The translations under genes were made by a program, and so were the position numbers. Source: Desulfovirgula sp. (lineage in GTDB: Bacteria; Bacillota; Desulfotomaculia; Desulfotomaculales; Desulfocucumaceae). Taken from it: a DNA stretch of 33,380 nt. Numbering within the stretch: the first letter of the stretch is position 1; every line of letters starts with the position of its first letter. The stretch covers positions 1 through 33,380 of the forward strand of contig DYET01000099.1 in assembly GCA_020725625.1 (NCBI GenBank), in the 5' to 3' direction. The notes beneath the pieces are model-generated. The model was not told where the DNA came from. It saw only the letters and a program-made list of their open reading frames with translations, and ran no database searches. Shown one piece after another: positions 23,180 through 25,803 of the stretch.

Positions 23180-23208
23180 TTGTGAAATCTAGTTTATCAT
23201 GATAGCAT
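23180..23208 (+). promoter_or_regulatory. Candidate promoter with overlapping palindrome upstream of the PadR/WtpA/radical SAM genes
   Basis: TTGTGA (23180-23185) and TAGCAT (23203-23208) match sigma-A hexamers at four of six positions each, with 17-base spacing. A perfect 10-base palindrome TATCATGATA (23195-23204) covers the spacer and the -10, where a repressor such as PadR would act. Confidence 0.4.
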
Positions 23209-23229
23209 TAAAATATATCTATATGCAGC

Positions 23230-23487
23230 GTGCAGATAGGAAACGACGGAATGTCGAACCTCATCTACAACATCGTGGCCATACCGGGGGGACTTTACAG
23301 GTACATCAAAGAAGGCAGGATGGCCTGGCCCCTGACCTGGGTGGTGGTGACCGGAACCCTGCCCGGTGTTTTTTTCGGCTCGTGGGTGAGAATAAAATAC
23401 CTGCCCGACCCCACCACCTTCAAGTTGTTTGTCGGCCTGCTTAAAATTAAAATGCGTAAATCGATTTACTGCGAGGTGTTCCCATGA
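23230..23487 (+). pseudogene. Internal fragment of a TauE/SafE family membrane transporter
   Basis: The frame reads MSNLIYNIVAIPGGLYRYIK, EGRMAWPLTWVVVTGTLPGV, FFGSWVRIKYLPDPTTFK and LFVGLL, and then diverges. This matches the central part of TauE/SafE (DUF81) permeases, which are normally ~250 residues with about eight membrane helices. Both the first ~60 and the last ~120 residues are missing. The stop overlaps the padR start in an ATGA (23484-23487), so translation of the fragment could still couple to the regulator. There is no clear ribosome site before 23251. Confidence 0.65.
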
Positions 23488-23882
23488 ACGGGGAAATGGA
23501 AGGCAGGGCCGCCGGCGAACCTCCGGTCATGCCGCTGGAGAAGCTCACCCAGCCGGCGATTTTGTTGCTTCTGGCCCAAAACAAAGCCCACGGCTACGAA
23601 CTGATTCAAAAGCTCAACCAGATGGAATTTACCGACGGCGACCTGGACACGGCCACGGTATATAGAATCCTGAGGCGCATGGAGCAGGAGGGCCTGCTGG
23701 CTTCCAACTGGGAGCACGGCGAATTTGGCCCGGCCCGGAGGCAGTACCGGCTGACCGGGGAAGGCCTGAATTCCCTCGATGAATGGGCCAGGACGCTGCA
23801 AGCCCGCCTCCGGCAAATCGAAACCTTCCTGACCTTATACCGGCACATAAAAAAGGGGCCGCTGCAGAACGGCCAAGGGTAG
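23484..23882 (+). CDS. PadR family transcriptional regulator (132 aa)
   Basis: Short PadR-type winged-helix repressor. Residues ~17-105 show the family pattern: LTQPAILLLLAQNKAHGYEL, then DLDTATVYRILRRMEQEGLL as the recognition helix region, then the basic wing with RRQYRLTGEGLNSLDEWA. A short C-terminal helix completes the dimer interface. The ATG has GAGGTG six bases upstream. It is followed 18 bases later by a WtpA-like binding protein, and then a radical SAM gene, so it most likely regulates this cluster. The ligand is unknown. A physical or signalling link with the neighbouring oxyanion-binding protein is inference. Confidence 0.88.
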   Translation: MNGEMEGRAAGEPPVMPLEKLTQPAILLLLAQNKAHGYELIQKLNQMEFTDGDLDTATVYRILRRMEQEGLLASNWEHGEFGPARRQYRLTGEGLNSLDEWARTLQARLRQIETFLTLYRHIKKGPLQNGQG

Positions 23883-23900
23883 ATTATTGGGGGTGCCTTT

Positions 23901-24722
23901 ATGGCGGACAATCGCAAGACTCTGAAAATACTGCACGCCGGTGCGCTGAGAAAACCGATCAAGGATTGCGTGCACCAATTCTGGAAAGATTGCCCCGATG
24001 TGGAAGTCACCCTGGACTACGCCGGGTCCAGGGCATGCGCCCACGCGGTGCTGGAGGGACGGGAAGTGGACGTCATCGCCCTGGCCGACCCGCACGTTTT
24101 CGAAGACCTGCTGGTGCCCGGTCATGTAGATGTATTCTTTGTCTTCGCCACCGACCAGATGGTCCTGGGCTATGATGAATTCTCCCAGTACAACAGTGAA
24201 ATAACCAGGCACAACTGGCCGGACATCCTGTTGAGGGAAGGGGTCTTGTTCGGCAGGTCCGACCACAACCTCGACCCCTGCGGATACAGGACCCTGATGG
24301 TCTGGCAGCTGGCCGAAAAATACTACAACCGGCCCGGTCTTTTCAATCTCCTGAACGGGAGGTGCGGGCCCGACCTAATCCACCCGAAGTCGATCGACCT
24401 CGCCGGGTCCCTCCTCGAAGGAAGGGTTGACTACGTGTTTATATACTCCTCGGTAGCCGAGCAGTTAAACTTCCGCTACGTCAGGCTTCCGGACCAGATA
24501 AACCTGTCCAATCCGGCCTACGCCGACGAATACGCCAAGGTGTCAGTGACGGTCACCGGCAAGGGGGGCGGGGTTTCCCTGGTCAGAGGGGCGCCGGTGG
24601 AGTTTGCTGTGGCCGTACCCAAAAACAGCGCCAACAAGGAACTGGCCAACCTTTTCGTAAAGACACTGACCAGCCGGGAAGGAGAAAAAATACTGGAAAG
24701 CTGCGGGCTTGTACCCTGTTAA
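23901..24722 (+). CDS. WtpA/ModA-type tungstate/molybdate-binding protein lacking a signal peptide (273 aa)
   Basis: Periplasmic-binding-protein fold of the WtpA subfamily. Visible motifs are LKILHAGALRKPI (7-20), LDYAGSRACAHAV, FATDQMVLGYDE, SDHNLDPCGYRTLMVWQLAE (120-139), and DYVFIYSSVAEQ followed by RLPDQINLSNP. Known relatives are exported lipoproteins that feed an ABC transporter. Here the protein starts MADNRKTLKILHAG, and an in-frame stop (the padR stop) lies six codons upstream, so no signal peptide or lipobox can be present. It should be cytoplasmic. D125 in the LDPCGYR motif is kept, while the expected glutamate of the F-E-Y-x-SVA motif appears as I181. No permease or ATPase genes adjoin. 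Confidence 0.82.
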   Translation: MADNRKTLKILHAGALRKPIKDCVHQFWKDCPDVEVTLDYAGSRACAHAVLEGREVDVIALADPHVFEDLLVPGHVDVFFVFATDQMVLGYDEFSQYNSEITRHNWPDILLREGVLFGRSDHNLDPCGYRTLMVWQLAEKYYNRPGLFNLLNGRCGPDLIHPKSIDLAGSLLEGRVDYVFIYSSVAEQLNFRYVRLPDQINLSNPAYADEYAKVSVTVTGKGGGVSLVRGAPVEFAVAVPKNSANKELANLFVKTLTSREGEKILESCGLVPC

Positions 24723-24762
24723 GAGCTGCCTCGCCCCGGAGGCCGGGAGGTGGAGGTGCAGG

Positions 24763-25803
24763 ATGTGGAAAAAGATTATAGACTTCCTGCTGATGCCGGA
24801 CCTGGACTGGCTGCAGGTGGAAATCACCACCTTCTGCAACGCGGCCTGCCTTTACTGTCCCCGCACGGTGTACGGCAGCCGGTGGCAGAACAGGCACATC
24901 GACCCGGCCGTGTTCGAAAAGATCGGGCCGGCGCTAAAAAGAACCGGCCTGGCCCACCTCCAGGGGTGGGGTGAACCGCTCCTGCACCCGGATTTTTTCC
25001 GGCTGGTGGGGCTGGCCAAAAAGTCTGGCTGCCTGGTGGGCACCACCACCAACGGCATTCTGATGGACGACGAAAAGGCCAGGCAGATTGCGGCCTCGGG
25101 CCTGGACCTGATTTCGTTTTCCCTGGCCGGAACCGGCCCGCGCAACGACGCCGCCCGCCGCGGCACCAGCCTGGCCGGTGTGCTGCGAGCCATCGAGTCG
25201 GTGGCCGGGGCCAGGGAAAGGTCCGGCACCGGCAGGCCGGCCGTCCACGTCAGCTACCTCCTTTTAAAGTCCGGCCTTGACGACCTGGCGCGCCTGCCGG
25301 AACTGCTGGCCGGGTCGGGAGCCACCGAGGCCGTCGTCAGCACCCTTGACTTCGTCCCGGATGAAAGCCTTGCGGCGGAAGCCTTTCCGCCCTCGGACAA
25401 AAGAGGCCTGGCCGCCGCCAGGTCCCTGATCAGGGAGGTCACCAGGGAAGGTGAAAAACGGGGCCTTGTAATTCACCACCGGCTTCCCGGGGACAGGATA
25501 CTGGGCCGCCCATGCGCCGAGAACCCGCTCCGGGCTGCCTTCATCTCAGCCGGCGGGCTGGTCTCGGCCTGCGTTTTCGGCTGCCTGCCGGCGAAAGACC
25601 GGCAAATCGAAGGGGAACCCGGCAGCCCCGCCGGCAGGGGCACAACATTCGGCAACCTGGGGGATTTGAGTTTTTCGGCCGTCTGGCGGCGCAGGGACTA
25701 CCGTTCCTTCCGCCGGAAACTGGAGGCCGGCCGGCCGGATCAGCCGTGCCGCACCTGCCCGAAGCTTTCCGGCCGGACGTGGACCAGATTTCCCTTTTAT
25801 TGA
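24763..25803 (+). CDS. Radical SAM protein with C-terminal Cys-rich (SPASM-like) region (346 aa)
   Basis: The radical SAM core binds a 4Fe-4S cluster through C25, C29 and C32 (TTFCNAACLYC, the CxxxCxxC motif), with HLQGWGEPLLHPDF as the GGEP-like SAM motif and TTTNGILMDD beyond it. The C-terminal region has further cysteines (GRPCAEN, SACVFGC, CRTCPK), suggesting one or more auxiliary clusters as in SPASM/twitch enzymes. ATG at 24763 with GGAGGTGGAGGTG upstream is preferred to a start inside the preceding gene. It follows the WtpA-like gene by 40 bases. One possible role is cofactor or protein maturation for Mo/W enzymes, by analogy with radical SAM proteins near aldehyde:ferredoxin oxidoreductases. 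That is speculation. Confidence 0.85.
   Translation: MWKKIIDFLLMPDLDWLQVEITTFCNAACLYCPRTVYGSRWQNRHIDPAVFEKIGPALKRTGLAHLQGWGEPLLHPDFFRLVGLAKKSGCLVGTTTNGILMDDEKARQIAASGLDLISFSLAGTGPRNDAARRGTSLAGVLRAIESVAGARERSGTGRPAVHVSYLLLKSGLDDLARLPELLAGSGATEAVVSTLDFVPDESLAAEAFPPSDKRGLAAARSLIREVTREGEKRGLVIHHRLPGDRILGRPCAENPLRAAFISAGGLVSACVFGCLPAKDRQIEGEPGSPAGRGTTFGNLGDLSFSAVWRRRDYRSFRRKLEAGRPDQPCRTCPKLSGRTWTRFPFY

Follow-up and report, generated by a model that had tools for sequence, protein, structure and literature searches.

Intracellular control of transporter genes by molybdate or tungstate is known from regulators of the ModE and TupR types, and ModE senses via TOBE/Mop domains. LysR regulators also use a periplasmic-binding-protein (PBP) fold inside the cell, with the sensor fused to a helix-turn-helix (HTH). 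PF12727 PBP-like domains are likewise an intracellular use of this fold. One such domain occurs on a MoeA, and TupR is described as a regulator of tungstate uptake (PMC10102598). The WtpA receptor of P. furiosus binds tungsten by Asp160 and Glu218 and is no longer selective once Asp160 is lost (PMC10221389). PadR operators have been reported that carry ATGT and ACAT with 8 to 10 nt between them; small PadR proteins without a ligand pore have been described, with their ligand sensing left open (PMC3506622). The locus considered here brings a PadR together with a WtpA-like protein. It lies in a window of 33,380 nucleotides, the whole stretch of Desulfovirgula sp. DNA analyzed, with the following features:

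23180 to 23208, plus strand: predicted promoter, TTGTGA-17-TAGCAT, a weak match
23219 to 23239, no strand assigned: predicted PadR operator, CTATATGCA-GCG-TGCAGATAG, an exact match to CTANNTGCANNNTGCANNTAG
23251 to 23487 (open frame from 23230), plus strand: truncated TSUP (TauE/SafE) permease relic (PF01925, 33.0 bits against a cut-off of 32.6, and tblastn)
23484 to 23882, plus strand: PadR-family repressor, 132 aa (PF03551)
23901 to 24722, plus strand: signal-less WtpA-like oxyanion-binding protein, 273 aa (PF13531, fold, and clade)
24763 (ATG) or 24709 (TTG) to 25803, plus strand: radical SAM/SPASM protein (PF04055 and PF13186), outside the conserved module

An earlier note on this DNA had placed PadR, the WtpA-like protein, and the radical SAM protein consecutively on one strand, and they do lie so, with gaps of 18 nt between the first two and 40 nt from the WtpA-like gene to the ATG at 24763. 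That note had also stated that no permease is adjacent. This holds for intact genes, but a truncated TSUP gene lies 5′ of PadR; neither this relic nor the inverted-repeat operator was recorded there. The relic overlaps the PadR start by 4 nt and corresponds by tblastn to residues 55 to 115 of an intact 322-aa paralogue on contig C118 of the same genome. The repressor belongs to the PadR family, with a PF03551 score of 58.5 bits (6.8e-16; cut-off, 27). A further PadR-family protein of 185 aa, encoded at 96 to 653 of the window, is more distant, scoring 51 bits to the module's PadR model.

The TAG at 23880, which is PadR's own stop, does stand in frame six codons before the ATG of the WtpA-like gene, as had been claimed. 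The frame is therefore closed, leaving no room for a signal peptide, and the protein has neither the signal peptide nor the lipobox of exported WtpA. It matches PF13531 at about 108 bits and falls below both NCBIfam WtpA models (258.4 bits against a cut-off of 355 and 238.5 against 242.75). Its AlphaFold model (pLDDT, 94.8) has the WtpA fold: the best structural match is 3k6u, the open, unliganded ModA/WtpA of M. acetivorans (Z, 34.9; 39% identity over 264 residues), and nine ModA/WtpA entries score Z of 28.9 to 34.9, with the next group at 25.2 and below. With WtpA and archaeal ModA, the receptor of WtpABC, the protein also shares the HAG and DPCGYR motifs and Asp125. A domain search found no TOBE/Mop domain in the window PadR or the binding protein, and neither has the HTH joined to TOBE/Mop that typifies ModE. 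In contrast to ModE, the candidate sensor here is a whole two-lobed WtpA-type protein and the DNA binder is a PadR. Nor does a LysR HTH share one chain with the PBP fold; the HTH is that of PadR, on a separate chain. The protein family differs from the PF12727 and LysR effector domains as well.

How general is this arrangement? A scan of named genomes gave 80 loci, 50 signal-less and 30 exported, and these sets also supplied the models used for scoring. Of the signal-less loci, 48 have a PadR gene immediately before the receptor gene on the same strand, and in the 49th (L111) the two are fused; the 50th (L124) starts at a contig end, so that PadR is upstream or fused in all 49 readable loci. 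The PadR-WtpA gene order, pointed out earlier for this locus, is thus conserved. By comparison, PadR was directly upstream of none of the 30 exported receptors, and 29 of these had wtpB and/or wtpC beside them. A wtpBC pair is missing from the window and from the immediate surroundings of all 50 signal-less loci, of which L120 has modBC instead. The exported proteins begin with a hydrophobic leader and the signal-less ones at the HAGAL strand, and a signal peptide is absent from every member of the signal-less clade that was checked. A maximum-likelihood tree divides the signal-less (52 rows) and exported proteins into two clades (support, 100/100) and needs a single change of state; this comparison of sequences shows a single origin for the signal-less type.

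The signal-less protein occurs in 48 of 120 relatives. When the survey was widened to 299 genomes from across the phylum, scores fell into two groups with a clean gap between them (at least 412 versus at most 291 bits), and outside the window's order the signal-less form was confined to one family, that of Desulfosporosinus. The idea that orthologues of the window protein carry signal peptides was rejected on the two separate clades and the score gap. Desulfotomaculum-like and Desulfosporosinus-like bacteria account for nearly all the signal-less loci; two records are labelled as other phyla and are perhaps mislabelled MAGs.

The third gene is usually a TSUP permease (PF01925), placed before PadR or behind the binding protein. 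Its place may be taken by MOT1 (PF16983, molybdate transporter), by CHR (PF02417, chromate transporter), or by both. Since the third gene varies in this way, the part that is kept is PadR with the receptor, and the oxyanion permease is exchangeable. Judged from gene order, the real unit is an oxyanion permease, PadR, and a signal-less WtpA, and it is a unit of Desulfotomaculum-like and Desulfosporosinus-like sulfate reducers. In Desulfosporosinus UBA4726 (L120, 2599 to 10491), it is embedded in the order XdhC-ModB-ModC-PadR-receptor-MOT1-CHR-ModA. In the receptor of that locus, YAAAL replaces HAGAL and VPRGYR replaces DPCGYR, so that Asp125 is lost. Separately, in one genome (G036; L198:992-2546) PadR is followed directly by TSUP without a receptor; the two may have been paired before the receptor joined them, or have stayed together after it was lost.

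The fused protein, from a Thermoanaerobacteraceae MAG (L111, on the same contig as L072), is a chain of 417 aa with PadR at 28 to 100 and the receptor at 151 to 414, followed by TSUP. It too carries a PadR rather than a LysR HTH. The contig has low coverage, 3.2x by its record name. A one-base sequencing error is an unlikely source of the fusion: the nearest split pair overlaps by ATGA, and at the fusion junction neither that stop nor any start codon remains. A natural fusion of this kind supports direct contact between the two proteins.

The upstream regions of the operons have in common the motif CTATRTGCA-NNN-TGCAYATAG, and the family consensus holds ATGY-N9-RCAT within its 21-bp site, an inverted repeat of the PadR type. 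An exact match such as that in the window is expected 0.01 times per window. The window's own genome has three sites with no more than one mismatch. One is that of the window, another falls in the interior of a gene resembling acyl-CoA dehydrogenase, and the third lies 33 bp before an unlinked MOT1 gene, the only MOT1 of that genome. In the paralogous module at C118, a site with two mismatches precedes the TSUP gene by about 300 bp; the remaining sites with one or two mismatches in this genome lie inside coding genes and were set aside. Across 110 genomes, the pattern gave 47 sites, versus 11 for a reversed control pattern, and 33 of the 47 stand before the module, a gene for PadR, or one for TSUP, MOT1, or CHR. 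The motif was derived from promoters of the module itself, which makes sites at unlinked genes an independent test. Such sites precede MOT1 once (the window's genome), CHR twice (G022 and G034), and TSUP four times (G039, G047, G078, and G088); in G039, G047, and G078, the module itself has no adjacent TSUP.

In 14 of 24 related promoters scoring 9 or more, exactly 10 nt separate the −10 box from the start of the operator, and the window keeps this spacing at a weaker promoter score of 8. This is the position of a repressor; PadR binding and repression there are predicted from promoter geometry. Operator matches are weak at Desulforudis PadR promoters. A similar palindrome, CTAAATGCATAATGCATGTAG, stands before a thiolase gene in two Desulfofundulus-type genomes (L209:635 and L210:2004) and probably belongs to another regulator. 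Some loci also carry a second, divergent PadR of the same subfamily beside the module (L216:1399-1821, L217:1170-1559, and L083:4972-5355), and in L190 one such PadR stands alone behind an operator. In relatives of Desulfallas and Desulfotruncus, an ORF of about 90 aa ending in ...DIDYFCNVA lies between the operator and padR (L216:1954-2244 and L080:2594-2860); it is maybe a small ferredoxin-like-fold domain.

We think it quite likely that oxyanion transport is repressed by a pair of proteins acting through a common operator, with PadR as the DNA-binding half and the cytoplasmic WtpA as the sensor. The earlier note had proposed a cytoplasmic oxyanion sensor, buffer, or chaperone beside a regulator, and the sensor role fits because the proteins are signal-less throughout, never lie beside wtpB/wtpC, always accompany PadR and in one case are fused to it, and have a common operator before oxyanion permeases. 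We imagine that PadR would bind CTATRTGCA-NNN-TGCAYATAG just downstream of the −10 box and, once bound, would block transcription of its own operon and of the unlinked MOT1, CHR, and TSUP genes; both steps are well supported. Cytoplasmic WtpA may then close on an intracellular oxyanion and, by contact with PadR, alter the hold of PadR on DNA, either as co-repression or as release. This would be akin to a LysR effector domain placed on a second polypeptide. Like other PadR repressors, the predicted one would autoregulate its operon; the difference is that it is permanently paired with a binding protein, which seems to do the sensing for it. The weak operator match in some genomes and the missing permease of the window copy speak against such a repressor.

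That brings us to the ligand. Molybdate or tungstate is likely, rather than a sulfur oxyanion, given the MOT1 partners, the mod operon context, and the WtpA ancestry, though we hold this less firmly than the regulatory role. The pocket is of the oxyanion receptor type but altered, as judged by alignment. Asp125 is taken as the equivalent of P. furiosus Asp160 from a sequence alignment with the WtpA of A. fulgidus. It is retained by 48 of the 52 signal-less proteins, the window's included; three Desulfosporosinus proteins lack it, including the receptor within the mod operon. The Glu position, taken as 164 from sequence alignment, is Ser in all 52 and never Glu, and the Ser of HAGSL (position 15) is Ala in all 52. 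Glu181 is present in 19 of the 52, whereas 29 of the 30 exported proteins have Glu at 164 or, alternatively, at 181. The window protein, with Asp125, Ser164, and Ile181 in the alignment, lacks the two-carboxylate metal site of WtpA. In the exported WtpAs (L127 to L156), the second acidic residue thus stands at 164 or at 181, in most of the 30 at one position instead of the other, which suggests a possible alternative tungsten ligand.

Since the pocket differs from that of exported WtpA, the ligand may not be molybdate or tungstate at all. The changes at positions 15 and 164 and the loss of Asp125 in the three Desulfosporosinus proteins count against those anions, as does the link of the TSUP and CHR families to sulfur oxyanions too. 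The same two-protein repressor could instead respond to sulfate, sulfite, or thiosulfate and control sulfate/sulfite traffic in sulfate reducers. Consistent with this, dsrA scores over its cut-off in 46 of the 48 genomes with the protein versus 32 of the 72 without it (Fisher, 1e-9, with phylogeny ignored), the two-carboxylate tungsten site is mostly gone, and the commonest partner is TSUP, which is predicted to move sulfur compounds (PMC5840216). Set against it are the WtpA ancestry and fold, the MOT1 partners and the operator before MOT1, the ModABC context in L120, and the retention in most members of Asp125, a direct metal ligand in WtpA. In sulfate reducers, to which molybdate is toxic (PMC10102598), both kinds of ligand are plausible, and we regard a sulfur oxyanion as the ligand as possible but rather doubtful.

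Even if a repressor responding to molybdate or tungstate is accepted for the family, the window copy might be a decaying, functionless paralogue, with only the C118 copy at work. Its TSUP gene is reduced to a relic, and C118 carries an intact TSUP-PadR-receptor module (G000:C118:1757-4365, L037) whose receptor is 72% identical to the window's. We consider decay unlikely. The window operator is exact, closer to the consensus than the C118 operator with its two mismatches, and the promoter spacing is kept. Both reading frames are open and constrained, with dN/dS relative to the C118 paralogue of 0.07 for the binding protein and 0.19 for PadR (rough values, as dS is high). A copy without a permease could still act in trans, and it is possible that the window copy now does so on MOT1.

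The genome also carries seven genes of the aldehyde ferredoxin oxidoreductase (AOR) family (contigs C21, C167, C12, C175, C162, C174, and C102), and its demand for tungsten or molybdenum is therefore likely to be high. Such demand would suit a signal-less protein that buffers oxyanions in the cytoplasm or, as a chaperone, passes them on to cofactor synthesis, with PadR, which could have a ligand of its own, sensing something else. This seems improbable to us: the fusion and the strict linkage to PadR point to a common task, and in the loci read neither moco nor AOR genes recurred as neighbors.

Judged by its genomic contexts, the radical SAM gene is a chance neighbor. It had been counted as part of the module, with perhaps a role in maturation of a Mo/W enzyme; that part of the proposal finds no support. 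The gene lies beside no other member in the neighborhoods read and the three-gene order is not conserved. Homologues occur in 21 of 120 relatives, in mixed contexts with none in common. The NCBIfam models that fit the protein best describe maturases of metalloenzymes and tungsten oxidoreductases, but it reaches a third of the score they require (TIGR04317, 122.5 bits against 380; TIGR04311, 123.2 against 400), which places it outside the tungsten-enzyme maturases. Joint action of PadR, WtpA, and the radical SAM protein, for instance in maturing a Mo/W enzyme, is thus extremely improbable, being largely refuted already by the missing gene order, although the single strand, the short gaps, and the identity of those best matches would have suited it.

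A search of the open-access literature found no paper linking PadR to molybdenum or tungsten, to TauE/SafE, or to a signal-less receptor. Intracellular sensors of the same fold are known (LysR and PF12727); what appears new is the pairing with PadR, together with the operator and the regulon. On balance, we lean slightly toward the full proposal of an undescribed two-protein repressor family in which a cytoplasmic WtpA serves PadR as a detachable sensor and the regulon consists of interchangeable TSUP, MOT1, and CHR permeases, and by which sulfate reducers of the Desulfotomaculum and Desulfosporosinus types sense molybdate or tungstate.

If so, a whole transport receptor would have been reused as a soluble, separate sensor subunit of a regulator, one whose operator and regulon can be read from sequence. 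The operator, the PadR-receptor pair, and the natural fusion make for a straightforward bench test. Function predictions for TSUP permeases have been called not feasible (PMC5840216). The proposed family would give one subfamily of these otherwise unassigned permeases a regulated role in oxyanion transport. It would also offer a testable way into the many TSUP permeases found in sulfate reducers, and into the means by which such bacteria cope with molybdate.
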